Positions 3,093 to 39,749 of a stretch of DNA of 45,409 nucleotides are shown piece by piece. The position numbers and the translations under genes were made by a program. Each line of letters opens with the position of its first letter. Position 1 is the first letter of the stretch. The notes under the pieces are model-generated. The model made no database searches. It saw only the letters and a list, made by a program, of their open reading frames with translations, and was not told the DNA's origin. Source of the DNA: Mailhella massiliensis (GTDB lineage: Bacteria > Desulfobacterota > Desulfovibrionia > Desulfovibrionales > Desulfovibrionaceae); NCBI RefSeq assembly GCF_900155525.1, contig NZ_LT706952.1, positions 132,899 through 178,307 of the forward strand, written 5' to 3'.

Positions 3093-3329
3093 TTACAGGT
3101 TGCGCCGGATTCGGCTTTCCATTTCCTCCATGATGGAGGATGGGCTCACGCTGAGAGATTCAGCAATACGGAAGAACATTTCCAGATTGGGATATTTGTG
3201 CCCGCTTTCAAGCATGCTGACATAGGGCGCGGCAACGCCGAGCCTTTCGCTCAGCTCTTCCTGTGTGAGGCGTTTTTCCAGACGTATCCGGCGAAGCACC
3301 GGCCCGAAGGCATCCGACTTTTTCTTCAT
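3093..3329 (-). CDS. XRE-family helix-turn-helix regulator
   Basis: A 78-residue protein that is essentially one HTH_XRE (Cro/C1-type) domain: LRRIRLEKRLTQEELSERLG gives helices 1-2 and VAAPYVSMLESGHKYPNLEMFFRIAESL gives the recognition helix and helix 4. The short tail (SIMEEMESRIRRNL) may aid dimerisation. It is transcribed away from the hxs operon, and a 36-bp palindrome sits in the shared intergenic region over the hxs -10. I infer it is the local repressor of hxs and perhaps of itself. It lacks a sensor domain, so the signal, if any, is unknown. Start ATG at 3329 has a weak AAAGGT ribosome site. Confidence 0.88.
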   Translation of the reverse strand: MKKKSDAFGPVLRRIRLEKRLTQEELSERLGVAAPYVSMLESGHKYPNLEMFFRIAESLSVSPSSIMEEMESRIRRNL

Positions 3330-3346
3330 ATACCTTTGCTAGCCCA

Positions 3347-3375
3347 TTGCCTTCAAAAAAAAATTAACCTATAGC
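3347..3375 (+). promoter_or_regulatory. predicted promoter of the hxs operon
   Basis: TTGCCT (3347-3352), a 17-bp A-rich spacer, then TATAGC (3370-3375). Transcription would start near 3382, giving an untranslated leader of about 85 nt before the GTG of hxsD. The -10 lies inside the left arm of the palindrome at 3364-3399, so a bound repressor would block it. Confidence 0.5.
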
Positions 3376-3399
3376 TTAGAAAAATAAGCGATAGGTTAA
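3364..3399. promoter_or_regulatory. palindromic operator between XRE gene and hxsD
   Basis: Arms TTAACCTATAGCTTA (3364-3378) and TAAGCGATAGGTTAA (3385-3399) are inverted copies matching at 14 of 15 positions, separated by GAAAAA. Size and symmetry fit a dimeric HTH protein bound over two helical turns, or two adjacent dimers. It overlaps the predicted -10 and start site of the hxs promoter. The 78-aa XRE protein encoded alongside is the obvious candidate ligand (inference). Confidence 0.65.
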
Positions 3400-3468
3400 T
3401 AAGTGTGCCTGTGTGATGCTTTCTGTCGTTTCGACTCGCTGTGGAATCTACGCCGGAGGGAGGCAACC

Positions 3469-3783
3469 GTGGAAATTCCGTTTGCCGTAAGTGAAGACGG
3501 GCGTCAGGGGTTCGTGTATGCGGACAAGCTTTTCTTCAACCGTGAATGTGTCCTGACGGTATCTGATATCTATTCGGAAAAATATTATATTTCTGTAGTG
3601 CCTTATCAGGATGACAAGGTGCTCGTCACCCTCTGCGGCAAGCGTGAAGAGCCCATGCAGGAAAACATCCTGAGAAGCTTCATGAATGATCTCATCGATT
3701 ATCAGGTAAGGCTGGATCTGCAGAAAGAATTCGGCGATCTCAGGAAAAGGATTATCGAATACGCCTTTTCTCCGGTGAAGTAG
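3469..3783 (+). CDS. hxsD: His-Xaa-Ser system protein HxsD
   Basis: Small partner protein of the His-Xaa-Ser radical SAM system, 104 residues from GTG 3469. I chose this start because GGAGGGAGG ends about 5 bp before it and it begins MEIPFAVSE. An upstream in-frame GTG at 3403 has no ribosome site and would overlap the promoter leader. The family's C-terminal signature, an N-D-x-x-x-Y-x-x-R block, appears as MNDLIDYQVRLDLQKEFG. The N-terminal half is a predicted beta-rich fold (YYISVVPYQDDKVLVTLCG). It is the first gene of hxsD-hxsB-hxsC-hxsA, with hxsB 2 bp downstream. The biochemical role is not known to me; by analogy with peptide-recognition partners of radical SAM enzymes it may present the HxsA substrate (inference). 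Confidence 0.82.
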   Translation: MEIPFAVSEDGRQGFVYADKLFFNRECVLTVSDIYSEKYYISVVPYQDDKVLVTLCGKREEPMQENILRSFMNDLIDYQVRLDLQKEFGDLRKRIIEYAFSPVK

Positions 3784-3785
3784 TC

Positions 3786-5231
3786 ATGTCCCGATATACG
3801 CTTCTTCCCTTTCAGTTTTGCAGAACGGACCGGAATGACATGCTTCTGGTGAACGAGTGCGGCGATTTTCTTTTTCTTCCGGATCATGTCTTTGAGTGCT
3901 TCATTCACCATGAGCTTCAGGAAGAAGATGAGTTTTTCCGCAGGTTGAAATCTCATCTTTTCTGTGCGGAAGAGGACCTTGATACCGCTTTGCAGAAGAT
4001 TGCAGCCCGGTACCGTACCCGGAAATCCTTTCTTCGCGACTTCACTACGTTGCACATGCTGGTAACGACGCTGCGCTGTAATCAGCGCTGTTCCTACTGT
4101 CAGGTATCCTGCGCCGAAAAGGAGGCTTCTCGTTATGACATGGACAGAGAAACGGCCTTCAGAGCGGTGGATATGATGTTTCAAGCGCCGACGAAGCATC
4201 CCAAGCTGGAATTTCAGGGGGGCGAGCCGCTTCTCCACTGGGATGTTGTCGAATCTACGGTGGCTTATGCGGAACAGATGGCCGGGCGGATGGGGAAAGA
4301 GGTTTCCTTTGTCCTGTGTACCAACCTTACGGCCGCCACTCGGGAACAGCTTGAGTTTTGTCGGGATCACGACATTGTCGTTTCCACCTCACTGGACGGA
4401 GACGCTTTCCTCCACGATGCATGCCGCAAAGACAGGCACGGGCGGGGGACCTACCATGTATTTATGGAAAAGCTGACGCTTGCCCGGGATATTCTGGGAA
4501 AGGACAGAGTGGGCGCGTTGATGACGACCACCTCCTTTTCCTTGCATCATTTGAAAGACGTTGTGGATGAATACGTTCGGCTGGGCATGGACGGAATTTT
4601 CCTTCGTTCTCTCAATCCCTACGGTTTTGCCGCCGAGGATGCGGCGACGCTTGGTTATCCCATGGAAAGTTTTGTGGAAAACTATCTGGAAGCGCTGCGC
4701 TATATCATGGAGCTCAATAAAACGGTATTTTTCCCGGAGCATTTTGCCACACTCCTTTTCTCGCGAATTCTGTCGCCTTTTGCCACGGGATTCGTCGATC
4801 TTCAGTCGCCTTCCGGGGCCGGTATAAGCGGGGTCATCTATGATTTCGACGGATCGGTCTTTCCTTCGGACGAGGCGCGCATGCTTGCACGTATGGGAGA
4901 CCGGCATTTTTGTCTGGGAAATGTGAAGATCGACAAGTACAAGGATATCTTCGGTTCCCGCCTGAAGAAACTGACTGCGGGGGCATGCCTGGAAACGACG
5001 TTTCCCTGCGCGTTCTGTGTGTATCAGGCCTATTGCGGTACGGATCCGGTACGCAACTATCTGGAAACGGGAAGCGAGCAGAGGAATATGACGCACGCTC
5101 CTTTCTGTATCAAGCATAAAGGGATACTGGCGGGACTTTTTGACATTCTCCGGCATGCCGGCGATACCGCGAGGGATATCATCTGGAGCTGGATAACCGG
5201 AAATGCAGATCTGGTGAGCAGACCATGTTGA
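3786..5231 (+). CDS. hxsB: His-Xaa-Ser system radical SAM maturase HxsB
   Basis: Radical SAM/SPASM-type enzyme, 481 residues. The AdoMet [4Fe-4S] motif CNQRCSYC (C98, C102, C105) is followed by the GGEP motif (145-148) in LEFQGGEPLLHW and then by the barrel. The C-terminus holds auxiliary-cluster cysteines in ACLETTFPCAFCVYQAYCG and a last Cys in HAPFCIKHK, the SPASM-like arrangement found in peptide-modifying maturases. An N-terminal extension of about 90 residues precedes the barrel, as in peptide-binding members. It is translationally coupled: 2 bp after hxsD and overlapping hxsC by 7 bp. In the Hxs family HxsB is one of two paired maturases presumed to modify the His-X-Ser repeats. The reaction is not known to me. 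Confidence 0.88.
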   Translation: MSRYTLLPFQFCRTDRNDMLLVNECGDFLFLPDHVFECFIHHELQEEDEFFRRLKSHLFCAEEDLDTALQKIAARYRTRKSFLRDFTTLHMLVTTLRCNQRCSYCQVSCAEKEASRYDMDRETAFRAVDMMFQAPTKHPKLEFQGGEPLLHWDVVESTVAYAEQMAGRMGKEVSFVLCTNLTAATREQLEFCRDHDIVVSTSLDGDAFLHDACRKDRHGRGTYHVFMEKLTLARDILGKDRVGALMTTTSFSLHHLKDVVDEYVRLGMDGIFLRSLNPYGFAAEDAATLGYPMESFVENYLEALRYIMELNKTVFFPEHFATLLFSRILSPFATGFVDLQSPSGAGISGVIYDFDGSVFPSDEARMLARMGDRHFCLGNVKIDKYKDIFGSRLKKLTAGACLETTFPCAFCVYQAYCGTDPVRNYLETGSEQRNMTHAPFCIKHKGILAGLFDILRHAGDTARDIIWSWITGNADLVSRPC

Positions 5232-6337
5232 GACTTCAGGGAACGGCTTCAGATACGTTTTGTCCTCTTGTCGGAGAAGTGACCTTTGCGGGAAGGCCCT
5301 TTCATGCAAGAAGTCGGGCTGTTCTTGTCTGCGACAAACTGACCCGTTCGGCTTTGGGGTATAAAGGATGCATTACTTCCGGGCTGCGGGGAGCATGGTT
5401 TCATCCGCATCATATCCATGGGGTGGAGAATACCGGCCTGCTGCATGAGGGCGATATCGTCTCTATGGACGGGGCGGGTAATATTGAGGTGTTGTGGGAG
5501 GAAGGCTCTTCCCAGAACTGTCTTTTTCTTACGGAAAACTGCAACTGCCGTTGCGTTATGTGTCCTCAGCCGCCGGCGCAGAGTGACCCGGCGCGTTTTC
5601 TGCGGCAGGCTGAAGAAGTGTTGCATCTCATACGCGGCAGAAAGATTTCGGACTGCTGCATCACGGGGGGAGAACCTTCCCTTGTGGGGGATGCTTTTTT
5701 CGACATTCTTCGGCGATGTGCAGTGGAGCACCCCGAAGCGCTGGTCAGTGTTCTGACCAACGGGCGGGCTTTTGCTGACAGAGAGTTTGCCCGCAAACTG
5801 AATGGTATTCCTTTGCGGAATGTTCTTTTCTGCGTATCACTTCATTCTGAAGTTGATACGCTGCATGACGGGATAACCGGAGTCCGGGGAAGCTGCTCAC
5901 AAACTCAGCAGGGGATATACAGGCTGGCATCTCTGGGCTTTGCCGTAGAAATACGCACTGTGATATCACGATATAACTACAGGTATCTTAAGGATTTTGC
6001 GGAGCATATAGGCAATTATTTTCCATTTTGTGCTCATTGTGCCTTTATGGGGCTGGAACTTCATGGATGGGCGGAAAAGAATAAGAACAAGGTGGATGTT
6101 TCTCCCGTAGAATACGGAAGTTATCTGAAAGATGCTGTACTGACGCTTGTAAGGCGGGGAATACCCGTATCTCTATACAATATACCTCTTTGCATGTGTG
6201 AAAATGCGGTACGCAAGTATGCAAGAAAATCCATTTCCAGTTGGAAGAACAGATACCTGCCACAGTGTGACGACTGTGTTATGAAGAGCCGGTGTTGCGG
6301 ATTCTTCAGTACTTCATCGTATCTGCCGGAATTATGA
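5225..6337 (+). CDS. hxsC: His-Xaa-Ser system radical SAM maturase HxsC
   Basis: Second radical SAM enzyme of the pair, 370 residues, with its ATG inside the end of hxsB. The cluster motif is CNCRCVMC (C106, C110, C113), with an extra Cys at 108. The glycine-rich SAM motif is TGGEPSLV (147-154). An N-terminal domain of about 100 residues precedes the barrel (..HIHGVENTGLLHEGDIVSM..). The C-terminus has a Cys-rich ending, QCDDCVMKSRCCGFF (C348, C351, C357, C358), typical of HxsC and suggestive of another metal or Fe-S site. It probably acts with HxsB on the HxsA-like protein encoded 27 bp downstream. Codon use toward the end (ATA, TAT, AAG runs) is more AT-rich than in neighbouring housekeeping genes, hinting at transfer. 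Confidence 0.88.
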   Translation: MLRLQGTASDTFCPLVGEVTFAGRPFHARSRAVLVCDKLTRSALGYKGCITSGLRGAWFHPHHIHGVENTGLLHEGDIVSMDGAGNIEVLWEEGSSQNCLFLTENCNCRCVMCPQPPAQSDPARFLRQAEEVLHLIRGRKISDCCITGGEPSLVGDAFFDILRRCAVEHPEALVSVLTNGRAFADREFARKLNGIPLRNVLFCVSLHSEVDTLHDGITGVRGSCSQTQQGIYRLASLGFAVEIRTVISRYNYRYLKDFAEHIGNYFPFCAHCAFMGLELHGWAEKNKNKVDVSPVEYGSYLKDAVLTLVRRGIPVSLYNIPLCMCENAVRKYARKSISSWKNRYLPQCDDCVMKSRCCGFFSTSSYLPEL

Positions 6338-6364
6338 TCAAACCTTTTACGGAAAAGGAGGAGT

Positions 6365-6622
6365 ATGAGAAGTTTCGTGTATAGATTATTCATGTTGGCG
6401 GGAATAGTGTTTTCCCTTTGGGGGAATATTTCAGGGCGGGCACAGGCTGCCGTTCCTCATGATGAAGGTGTAACGGGTAATCTGGAGGAACGTCCGCTGA
6501 TTTTTTCCGATCTCATGCCCGAATATCGCGATCATCTTTTGAGCTATCATTACAGTCATTCCAGCCATTCCAGTCACTACAGCCACTCCAGTCACAGAAG
6601 TCATTATTCCAGCAGATGGTAG
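6365..6622 (+). CDS. hxsA: HxsA-like secreted protein with seven tandem His-Xaa-Ser triplets
   Basis: An 85-residue precursor and the likely substrate of HxsB/HxsC. A GGAGGAG ribosome site precedes the ATG closely. Residues 1-28 are a Sec signal peptide ending GRAQA. A linker (about 29-60, LEERPLIFSDLMPEYRDHLL) may be the recognition segment. Residues 62-82 are seven uninterrupted triplets HYS-HSS-HSS-HYS-HSS-HRS-HYS, and the protein ends SRW. This is much shorter than Hxs repeat proteins carrying extra domains, so it is a minimal version; assignment to a particular HxsA subtype cannot be made here. After export the modified repeat would sit in the periplasm or outside the cell. Metal binding by the His array is possible but unproven. 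Confidence 0.85.
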   Translation: MRSFVYRLFMLAGIVFSLWGNISGRAQAAVPHDEGVTGNLEERPLIFSDLMPEYRDHLLSYHYSHSSHSSHYSHSSHRSHYSSRW

Positions 6623-6715
6623 GTGGTTCCTGAGCAGAACGTATACCTGCTTTTGGGAGCAGAGAGTCGGCGGAACTTCTGAAAGACGGGAGAATTTTCC
6701 GTCAGTAAAACACAC

Positions 6716-6752
6716 AAAAAGCCGCGTTTCCCCCGGGGGAGCGCGGCTTTTT
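6716..6752. terminator. bidirectional terminator between hxsA and gcvH
   Basis: AAAAAGCCGCG (6716-6726) and CGCGGCTTTTT (6742-6752) pair perfectly, with an inner CCCCCGGGGG. T-tracts occur in both directions, so it ends the hxs operon on + and gcvH on -. Confidence 0.88.
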
Positions 6753-6771
6753 GGTGTTGTGGCGTAAAAGC

Positions 6772-7167
6772 TTACAGGGTGGCCTTGTAGGCGTCGGCGG
6801 ACATGAGGGCGTCCACGGCGGCCATGTCTTCGGGCTTCACCTTGATGAGCCAGCCCTTCTCATAGCAGGAGGCGTTGAGCAGGGTGGGGGTGTCGGCAAG
6901 TTCGCCGTTCACGGCGGTGACTTCACCGGCCACGGGCATGAAGAGCTTGTTCACGGACTTGATGGATTCCACTTCGCCGAATTCGTCGCCCGCGCCGAAG
7001 CTGTCGCCTTCGGAAGGCAGATCGACATAAACCACTTCGCCGAGCTGATCCTGAGCGTAGTCGCTCACGCCCACGACGATTTCATCGCCTTCCACGCGGG
7101 CCCAGATATGTTCGTCGGTGTACTTGAGGCTGGCGGGGAGGTTGAGTTCCGCAACGGTCTTGGCCAT
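6772..7167 (-). CDS. gcvH: glycine cleavage system H protein
   Basis: Lipoyl-carrier protein of 131 residues, the normal size. It shuttles the aminomethyl group between the P, T and L proteins of the glycine cleavage complex. The lipoylation site is K70 in GEVESIKSVNKLFMPVAG, and the N-terminal KYTDEHIWARVEGDEIVVGVSDYAQDQLGEVVYVDLP is the classic H-protein hammerhead. An AAGGAG box precedes ATG 7167. The L-protein gene lies 154 bp upstream on the same strand, but no gcvT or gcvP is in the window. In anaerobes H-like proteins also serve as general lipoyl or lipoate-assembly carriers, so the partner set is uncertain. Confidence 0.94.
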   Translation of the reverse strand: MAKTVAELNLPASLKYTDEHIWARVEGDEIVVGVSDYAQDQLGEVVYVDLPSEGDSFGAGDEFGEVESIKSVNKLFMPVAGEVTAVNGELADTPTLLNASCYEKGWLIKVKPEDMAAVDALMSADAYKATL

Positions 7168-7243
7168 GGGAGTTCTCCTTGTATGGCGTTTTCAGGTGTA
7201 TGCCCCATGGGTGGGGGCCGCCCCGCACAAGGGCGGCGGGAAA

Positions 7244-7265
7244 GGGAGCGGCGTGCGCCGCTCCC
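7244..7265. repeat. 10-bp perfect inverted repeat between lpd and gcvH
   Basis: GGGAGCGGCG and CGCCGCTCCC are separated by 2 bp. Only a short T-run follows on either strand, so it is more a transcript-stabilising or partial termination hairpin than a strong terminator. Confidence 0.35.
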
Positions 7266-7321
7266 TCATATGTACGACGGAGAAAAGGACATGTCCATAC
7301 CGCGCGCAGGCGCGGCAGGGC

Positions 7322-8746
7322 TTATTCCGCAATGCCTGCGGCGGCTTCCATCACGCCTTCGGCCAGCGTGGGGTGGGCGTGGATGGTGCGGGAGATGTCG
7401 GAAACCTTCGCTCCCATCTCAAGGGCGAGGGCGCATTCGGCAATGAGGTCCGTGGCATGGGCGCCGGCAAAGTGCGCGCCGAGGAGCCTGCCGCTTTCCT
7501 TGTCCGCCACCAGCTTGAACACGCCGGGCAGTTCGCCCATGGCCTGCGCCTTGCCCAGTTCCCGGAACTGGAATTCCGAGGTGACGACGTCGAAGCCCTT
7601 GGCCTTGGCCTGCGCTTCGGTAAGGCCCACGTCGCCGATTTCCGGCGAGCTGAAGATGCCGGAGGGAACCACGTCGTAATTGGGCTTTTCGCTCGCGCCG
7701 AAGATGTTGGCCACGGCCACATGCGCTTCGGCAGAGGCCATGTGCGCCAGCATGATGCGCGCGGGGCCGAGAATGTCGCCGATGGCGTAGATGCCGGGCA
7801 CGGAGGTTTCGAGCTGGTCGTTCACGGTGATGTAGCCGCGCTTGTCGGTGGCGACTCCCGCTTCGGCAAGGCCGAGGCCGTCGGTCACGGGCACGCGGCC
7901 GATGGTCATGAAGATGCAGTCGGCCTCAAGGGTGACGGGCTTTTTGGCGGAGGCGGGCACAAGCTCGGGAGCGAGGAAGGGAGAGGGGCCGAGGTCGGCA
8001 AAGACCCTGCCGTCTTCCACCTTCGTGGCGTTCACGGTACGGGCGAGTTCCACCTTGATGCCCTTCTTCTTGGCTTCGCGCAGGAGGAGCCTGCTCATTT
8101 CCTCGTCCACGGAGGGCACGGGCAGAAGGCGGTTCTGCCCTTCCACGATGGTCACTTCGCTGCCGAAGGCGCGGAAGATGAAGGCCAGTTCCGTGCCGAC
8201 CACGCCGCCGCCCACGATGATGAGGCGCGCGGGCACATGCTCGAGTTCCAGAGCTTCATTGCTGGAAAGAATATACTTGCCGTCCACGGGCAGGGAGGGG
8301 AGATTCAGCACGTTGGAGCCGGTGGCGATGATGACCCTGTCGCCTTCGATGTCCTGAACCGTGCCGTCGGCAAGGGTGGCCTGCACGAGGTTTGCGCTCA
8401 CCACGCGGCCGCGGCCCATGACCACGTTGACCTTCAGCTTCCGGCAGGTCTTTTCGAGGCCCCCGCGCAGGGTTTCGGAAACCTTGCGCTTTCTGGCGAT
8501 GACGGAGGGCATGTCCACGGAAGGGGCGCCTTCGCAGGAAATGCCGAATTCTCCGGCGCGGCGGATGGTTTCCAGCGCTTCTGCCGAGGATTTCAGGGTT
8601 TTGGTGGGAATGCAGCCGCAGTTGAGACAGGTGCCGCCGAGCCAGGTGGATTCCACGAGGGTGACGTCCGCGCCGCGTTTTGCGGCGTCGAAGGCGGCCG
8701 TATAGCCGCCGGGGCCTGCACCGATGACGGTGATGCGAAGAGCCAT
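7322..8746 (-). CDS. lpdA: dihydrolipoyl dehydrogenase
   Basis: FAD-dependent oxidoreductase of 474 residues that reoxidises dihydrolipoyl groups with NAD+. The FAD Rossmann motif is VIGAGPGGYTAA. The redox-active disulfide is GGTCLNCGCIPTK (C40 and C45, with an additional C43 between them, where most relatives have Val). The NAD domain has IIVGGGVVGTELAFIF, and the second FAD motif includes GIYAIGDILG. The C-terminal interface has the catalytic HAHPTLAEG. It is followed on the same strand by gcvH, which supports a role as the glycine-cleavage L protein. The gene ends about 150 bp before gcvH. Confidence 0.94.
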   Translation of the reverse strand: MALRITVIGAGPGGYTAAFDAAKRGADVTLVESTWLGGTCLNCGCIPTKTLKSSAEALETIRRAGEFGISCEGAPSVDMPSVIARKRKVSETLRGGLEKTCRKLKVNVVMGRGRVVSANLVQATLADGTVQDIEGDRVIIATGSNVLNLPSLPVDGKYILSSNEALELEHVPARLIIVGGGVVGTELAFIFRAFGSEVTIVEGQNRLLPVPSVDEEMSRLLLREAKKKGIKVELARTVNATKVEDGRVFADLGPSPFLAPELVPASAKKPVTLEADCIFMTIGRVPVTDGLGLAEAGVATDKRGYITVNDQLETSVPGIYAIGDILGPARIMLAHMASAEAHVAVANIFGASEKPNYDVVPSGIFSSPEIGDVGLTEAQAKAKGFDVVTSEFQFRELGKAQAMGELPGVFKLVADKESGRLLGAHFAGAHATDLIAECALALEMGAKVSDISRTIHAHPTLAEGVMEAAAGIAE

Positions 8747-39673: not shown

Positions 39674-39749
39674 GGACCCGTAGCTCAGTTGGTAGAGCCC
39701 CCGGCTCATAACCGGATTGTCGTAGGTTCGAAGCCTGCCGGGTCCACCA
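39674..39749 (+). tRNA. tRNA with CAU anticodon (elongator Met, or Ile2)
   Basis: 76 nt including encoded CCA. Acceptor GGACCCG/CGGGTCC pairs fully; D arm GCTCAGTTGGTAGAGC; anticodon loop CTCATAA; T arm GTAGG-TTCGAAG-CCTGC. G1-C72 pairing excludes the initiator tRNA. Telling Met from lysidine-modified Ile needs a model search. Confidence 0.92.

Follow-up and report, generated by a model that had tools for sequence, protein, structure and literature searches.

What do the two radical S-adenosylmethionine (SAM) enzymes of a His-Xaa-Ser (Hxs) cassette do to the small protein encoded beside them, how do they recognize it, and where does it go? These questions are raised by a locus of Mailhella massiliensis in which hxsD, hxsB, hxsC and hxsA follow one another in this order on the plus strand, at positions 3469-6622 of a 45,409-nucleotide stretch of contig NZ_LT706952.1 (hereafter the window, meaning the whole of this stretch). 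One paper credits the His-Xaa-Ser motif to Haft and Basu, with HxsB and HxsC putatively needed for maturation (PMC9062424); a Pseudomonas aeruginosa study has the hxs genes in a list (PMC8446631). Our literature search found no report of a reaction or function for Hxs, which agrees with the original prediction for this DNA, made from its letters, that no reaction was settled. Hxs is common (414 plasmid records, and the best 80 loci of named genomes) yet still undeciphered.

Our best explanation, to which we give a probability of about 0.5, is an Hxs cassette, probably controlled by its XRE-type regulator, the HxsA of which would be exported and kept in the envelope with a cyclophane-bearing tail. 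The copy in the window is an ordinary one, of value for the family-wide clues that it gives to chemistry, recognition and location. The new elements are a predicted N-terminal domain of HxsB that resembles a RiPP recognition element (RRE; RiPP, ribosomally synthesized and post-translationally modified peptide), a candidate leader motif in HxsA, long HxsA forms with envelope-type domains, a pattern of Ser-to-Ala losses and a conserved 38-bp repeat. The comparison thus yields a candidate recognition motif, a candidate domain to bind it, and a favoured envelope location in place of a secreted product.

Identity of the cassette

The locus has all four components of the Hxs system, in the D-B-C-A order. 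Searched against NCBIfam (release of June 2026), HxsB reached 543.6 bits with TIGR03978 (cut-off 370) and HxsC 325.8 bits with TIGR03977 (cut-off 267.9), so that both are full family members. HxsD stands at the threshold, since its 49.4 bits with TIGR03976 (49.8 in the genome search) lie just under the cut-off of 50; its position and its conserved C-terminal part match those of relatives. HxsA is like the HxsA2-type substrates in being a short protein with a C-terminal HxS run, but falls under both curated thresholds, with 33.7 bits for the HxsA2 model NF038296 (cut-off 48) and 37.2 bits for TIGR03979 (cut-off 121.65), the best stretch covering positions 17-75 of the 190 in the latter model. 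No second HxsA was found elsewhere in the genome with NF038296 (E ≤ 0.01). The profile search proposed for the four proteins in the original prediction therefore places the two enzymes in the Hxs families, HxsD at the threshold and HxsA below both of its cut-offs. The window also differs from the general system in its XRE gene and inverted repeat, which among the loci examined occur in the genus only.

The gene content first described, an XRE gene facing hxsD, hxsB and hxsC together with an 85-residue HxsA, is present in full, and the A, B, C and D genes are linked in relatives of many phyla. Across 114 loci (the window, 25 other genome loci, 80 from named genomes and 8 viral ones, 5 being repeats of the same contig), hxsB occurs in 114, hxsC in 112 and hxsD in 106; both hxsC misses and five of the eight hxsD misses lie at contig ends. 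By these sequence measures the locus is almost certainly a canonical, ordinary Hxs cassette.

Both enzymes carry the CxxxCxxC motif (C98/C102/C105 in HxsB, C106/C110/C113 in HxsC) and, as claimed, a Cys-rich C-terminus. The C-terminal cysteines, C408, C411, C417 and C441 of HxsB and C323, C348, C351 and C357 of HxsC, do not vary in alignments that comprise 20 and 25 sequences, the window included, and the same holds in wider alignments of 61 and 62 sequences, except that HxsB C441 is there conserved at 90% or more. Four such residues would be enough for one auxiliary cluster in each enzyme. The nonsynonymous rate (dN) is well below the synonymous rate (dS) in all 15 comparisons of the five genes with three same-genus copies, dS being saturated in several, HxsA included; the repeat codons of hxsA vary synonymously against these copies. 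The most plausible start of hxsD is GTG 3469, with GGAGGGAGG upstream at 3455-3463 and the same start in same-genus relatives; the first GTG of the open reading frame, at 3403, is disfavoured by comparison.

The repeat and leader of HxsA and their possible recognition

The HxsA of the window ends in the uninterrupted triplets HYS HSS HSS HYS HSS HRS HYS, followed by SRW. The seven triplets first reported are thus confirmed; shuffling the protein 20,000 times produced runs of at most three. It has nine His among its 85 residues and no Cys, and the predicted mature protein has 57 residues.

Is this substrate special? We surveyed 107 non-redundant HxsA candidates, collected by a pattern with His at position 1 and Ser, Ala, Thr, Gly, Cys or Asn at position 3 of the triplet; they include the window's HxsA and a few extra HxS-ended proteins. 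The repeat ends eight residues or fewer from the C-terminus in 82 of the 107, and uninterrupted runs count 3 to 10 triplets, with a mode of seven (40/107). NF038296 was matched by 80 of the 102 members scanned (E ≤ 0.001). The earlier view of a minimal, unusually short precursor cannot be kept with these figures, and the suggested comparison of repeat numbers does not set it apart either, seven triplets being the commonest number and some extra candidates (for example in L109 and L112) ending in three. With its short mature form and seven triplets the window's HxsA is a convenient substrate, as are many others.

Three such extra proteins come from Bacteroidota Hxs loci (L109, 8355-8894; L112, 8426-8863; L119, 609-923). 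In each, an unrelated stretch is followed by no more than three or four terminal HxS/HxA triplets, as though the repeat were a C-terminal tag.

The middle position of the triplet is free, whereas the outer ones are nearly fixed. Among 715 triplets the middle residue is Ser in 255, Tyr in 156, Arg in 127, Ala in 66 and Gly in 31, with 16 residue types overall and Asp, Pro, Leu and Ile never found; position 3 is Ser in 707, Ala in 6 and Asn in 2. A separate count of deviations, made on 105 proteins and 734 in-register triplets, gave 715 intact triplets, five losses of His only, five of Ser only and nine of both. The His losses fall in spacer-like breaks of the HxS runs, and the five Ser-only losses within runs, from three loci, are all to Ala. 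The two Asn cases, both a run-end HYN in two L076 proteins, lie outside this second count. Near-invariance of His and Ser suggests that the triplets are the site of the chemistry.

Of 87 thinned leaders, 80 have a hydrophobic triplet upstream of the repeat, at a distance of 11-27 residues from the first His; over 500 shuffles the mean number was 29.4 and the highest 46. It is mostly L-x-L, with Leu first in 56 of the 80 and third in 51, and it stands 14-20 residues before the first His in 71 of them. The candidate recognition motif of the window is given in Table 1.

Which component could bind such a leader? The AlphaFold2 model of HxsB (predicted local distance difference test, pLDDT, 93.2; predicted template modelling score, pTM, 0.92) begins with strands at 9-13, 18-23 and 28-32, followed by helices at 33-40, 49-56 and 65-79. 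An RRE consists of a three-stranded sheet followed by three helices. This is the topology of the modelled N-terminus, and HxsB is thus predicted to open with an RRE-like domain at about residues 9-79. HxsD is modelled with a pLDDT of 94.4 as beta-alpha-beta-beta-long alpha, a predicted topology by which we rule it out as a leader-binding RRE protein; because the predicted fold is not that of an RRE, HxsD is more likely a partner or assembly factor. Its fold matches are non-significant (best E 7.6e-3, template modelling (TM) score about 0.5) and comprise DCoH-type proteins and chains K/Z of RNA polymerases, which we take to be of the AC19/RPB11 type.

The best Foldseek matches of HxsB are the structures 5why and 5wgg, presumably of the thioether maturase CteB, with a TM-score of 0.62-0.67 by query length over 464-472 columns. 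Although this is the closest fold, identity is 19%, and a thioether is impossible in the window's HxsA, which lacks Cys.

Bond type and destination

How might the triplets be modified? We propose that HxsA has a Sec-type signal peptide, then a short hydrophobic strand that serves for recognition, and lastly the C-terminal (HxS)7 tail. The RRE-like N-terminus of HxsB would bind this strand in the cytoplasm. HxsB and HxsC would then modify the triplets one by one, in a division of labour between the enzymes that we infer, with HxsD assisting as a non-RRE partner. The reaction would most likely be an oxidative carbon-carbon cross-link between the His(i) imidazole and the C-beta of Ser(i+2), so that each triplet becomes a three-residue cyclophane. 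After modification the protein would be exported by Sec and be retained in the envelope, where it would form a stiff, His-rich tail.

The chemistry is likened to that of cyclophane-forming enzymes (MscB, HaaB and YhhB, with the FxsB and GrrM models), for which one source describes an aromatic-X-X3 motif with bonds from i to i+2: MscB joins Phe C4 to Ser C-beta, and in triceptides His C2 is bonded to Ala C-beta by HaaB and to Arg C-beta by YhhB (PMC11002830). A bond from i to i+2 suits HxS, because the repeat has a three-residue period with near-fixed positions 1 and 3 and a free middle. Moreover, Ala keeps the C-beta and lacks the hydroxyl, so that the Ser-to-Ala losses, a small sample, favour C-beta and disfavour a bond to the Ser oxygen; all five being to Ala hints at a His-to-C-beta(i+2) cyclophane. 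Taken alone, and resting as it does on analogy and the Ser-to-Ala pattern, the cyclophane remains a tentative assignment, somewhat short of even odds.

Several points weigh against the reading as a whole. After its own model, the best curated relatives of HxsB are PapB, a ranthipeptide maturase model, and CcpM; the models that NCBIfam calls cyclophane-forming score lower (YhhB 54 bits, GrrM 48, FxsB 39), HxsB itself being named a maturase only, and its best solved relative is a thioether maturase. At E ≤ 1 the N-terminus of HxsB is matched by no Pfam family, and hence by none of the PqqD/RRE type, except for one chance-level hit, and the N-terminal 70-95 residues of HxsC are unexplained. The five Ser-to-Ala cases stem from no more than three loci, and a looser rule gives six Ala and two Asn. 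In 10 of 106 loci, some of which are cut by contig ends, no HxsA candidate turned up at a distance of up to 4 kb from hxsB. Finally, a single type of bond leaves the need for two radical SAM enzymes unexplained.

Other chemistries were weighed as well. HxsC and HxsB, acting in sequence, could make mixed cross-links in which His is bonded to a Ser oxygen or to backbone atoms, after the example of the two-enzyme HGH system (bicyclostreptin). In favour are the two radical SAM enzymes with their small partner protein, a core that contains His, and the precedent of HghB/HghC/HghD, with an ether from Ser O to His C-beta (PMC11002830). However, Ala has no side-chain oxygen to offer in the five Ser-only losses, a small sample from three loci, and HxsD is predicted with a fold unlike an RRE, whereas HghD is called an RRE protein in that source (PMC11002830); we consider such two-step chemistry unlikely. 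We find it equally improbable that the repeat is changed without cross-links, one enzyme carrying out an epimerization, methylation or other single-residue alteration and the other a second change. Radical SAM maturases catalyse many reactions, HxsB and HxsC both match the epimerase YydG/EpeE weakly, and the presence of two different enzymes and the closest curated relatives of HxsB, which are not models named for cyclophanes, would fit; the strict three-residue period with its near-fixed outer positions and free middle is better suited to an i to i+2 bond.

Where would the product go? The original prediction had it exported, perhaps as an antimicrobial peptide. Export is borne out as far as a Sec-type signal can be read from HxsA, which looks exported. 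A released antimicrobial or signalling RiPP, with the core cut from its leader, is quite another matter and we hold it to be very improbable, in spite of the small precursor, the modifying enzymes and the carriage by plasmids and phages. Clustering of 2894 frames of at least 70 amino acids within 7.5 kb of hxsB in the 114 loci, many with short flanks, gave no flanking family in more than eight loci, the top cluster including repeated contigs; there is therefore no exporter, protease or immunity gene general to Hxs, and a dedicated one can be set aside at that level. Furthermore, the signal is of the Sec type and long forms of HxsA are fused to envelope-type domains: of the 25 found, 10 were scanned, and seven carry peptidoglycan-binding, cadherin-like or PKD domains (PG_binding_1 in five, Big_9/cadherin-like in one, PKD in one; three have nothing above cut-off). 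These domains and the lack of a recurrent flanking gene favour an envelope protein over a released antimicrobial.

Could HxsA then be an unmodified His-rich, metal-binding envelope protein, the radical SAM enzymes acting elsewhere? Its nine His and the loci without a nearby candidate would agree with this, but candidates adjoin the enzymes in 96 of 106 loci and the leader motif is conserved, its distance from the repeat being confined to a limited range, so that this explanation too has very little in its favour. Going further with the cyclophane-tailed envelope protein, the tail could be a row of His-to-Ser C-beta cyclophanes forming a stiff rod, anchored within or beneath the cell wall, along which the imidazoles are evenly spaced. 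Radical SAM chemistry would then produce a building element of the envelope, and not a natural-product antibiotic, with which phages and conjugative plasmids would alter the envelope of their host. This picture is speculative and rather doubtful.

Regulation, spread and loss

XRE orthologues with 70-88% identity adjoin the other five Hxs loci of the genus and a remnant in genome G015. A tblastn search matched the XRE protein in 5 of the 113 other Hxs loci, all five in the genus (some of the others have short flanks). The inverted repeat between the XRE gene and hxsD is kept with small changes in all five of these genus loci and in the G015 remnant; a strict form of the pattern (at most three mismatches) has a single site in this genome and is present in 4 of the 19 genomes of the genus. 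The cassette is probably under XRE control, and the simplest reading of the repeat is a local autoregulatory operator. An XRE regulon beyond the cassette was rejected, the operator pattern having a single site in the genome. A scan for the sigma-70 consensus was uninformative (three matches against 3.9 expected).

Table 1. Positions of the features discussed, in window coordinates
Feature	Position	Strand	Remarks
XRE-type (HTH_3) regulator gene, 78 amino acids	3093-3329	-	Pfam PF01381, 54.6 bits (cut-off 23); divergent from the hxs operon
Inverted repeat, 38 bp, likely XRE operator	3363-3400		16-nucleotide arms, 6-nucleotide spacer, 94% complementary; between XRE gene and hxsD
hxsD, 104 amino acids, start GTG 3469	3469-3783	+	TIGR03976
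hxsB, radical SAM maturase	3786-5231	+	TIGR03978; CxxxCxxC and four-Cys C-terminal motif
hxsC, second radical SAM maturase	5225-6337	+	TIGR03977; 7-nucleotide overlap with hxsB
hxsA-like substrate gene, 85 amino acids	6365-6622	+	27 nucleotides after hxsC; scored with TIGR03979 and NF038296
Predicted Sec signal peptide, HxsA residues 1-28 (...GRAQA/AVP, cleavage at the slash)	6365-6448	+	Read from sequence
Candidate leader recognition motif L45-I46-F47-S48-D49	6497-6511	+	17 residues upstream of the first repeat His
Seven HxS triplets, HxsA residues 62-82	6548-6610	+	Read from sequence
Inverted repeat with terminal A/T runs, possible bidirectional terminator	6716-6752		Between hxsA and gcvH; by eye; not reported by the consensus scan

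The number of genomes in which HxsB exceeds its cut-off is 6 of 19 for the genus, 18 of 199 for the family, those six included, and 11 of 395 for the phylum, where E ≤ 1e-60 gives 12. The scan of named genomes, made with an alignment as the query, matched at least 592 stretches. At least 570 of them encode a relative (tblastn E ≤ 1e-3), although radical SAM proteins of other kinds may be among these. We retained the best 80, which come from many phyla. With a single protein as the query, 35 stretches were returned, none of them a relative.

Mobile elements carry the system too. HxsB matches occur in 414 of 72,556 plasmid records (E ≤ 1e-20), 317 of them Klebsiella and 327 predicted conjugative, as well as in eight viral contigs and two phage records, among them a Leptospira phage with the order hxsA-hxsD-hxsB-hxsC. 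On the Klebsiella pneumoniae plasmid pKPN (L184), hxsD-hxsB-hxsC-hxsA is flanked by genes of the IS1 and IS66 types of insertion sequence (IS), near a resistance region. In the viral contig L159 (8765-20432), hxsDBCA is bordered on each side by phage-type regulator genes, an internal virion protein gene follows at a greater distance, and three of ten flanking frames scanned matched a PHROG; its HxsB groups with those of Desulfovibrionaceae. In a tree of 106 HxsB proteins (a quick method, with no bootstrap; repeated contigs and frames below 400 amino acids left out), all six copies from the genus, that of the window among them, group together at a support of 100, and same-family rows fall in at least three separate places. 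The cassette is therefore stable within the genus, whereas movement between lineages is probable.

Of the six cassettes in the genus, five look intact. In the sixth, from genome G016, an insertion that carries transposase-like frames interrupts hxsB at about codon 445 (L058, about 4172-4998). The G015 remnant (L183, about 4260-4910) retains the XRE gene with the inverted repeat, some 60 codons of hxsD and, adjoining these, the 3' end of hxsA; its flanks are syntenic with the window, and G015 has no HxsB match over the cut-off. The interrupted hxsB and the remnant show that the Hxs system is dispensable. In L078 (G239), hxsB is likewise broken, near codon 262, by about 2.5 kb (about 5777-8295) with two frames that resemble an IS21-type transposase and its ATPase partner. 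Single genes are split in two frames in three other loci (hxsC in L059 and L081, hxsB in L077), by frameshift or sequencing error.

A role in anti-phage defence was considered and rejected: the PADLOC matches of HxsB and HxsC are to viperin (pVip), at 26-39 bits and over the radical SAM core, the XRE protein matches regulator-type models (best HTH_VI, 53 bits), and HxsD and HxsA have none at E ≤ 0.01. An Rfam search of the window, L058 and L078 at gathering thresholds gave a single match, a tRNA at 39674-39746 of the window. Upstream of the cassette, a profile search places a gene for a TolC-family outer membrane protein at 1280-2614, and the gene pair at 55-405 and 415-1098 on the minus strand is, we assume, biopolymer-transport-like.

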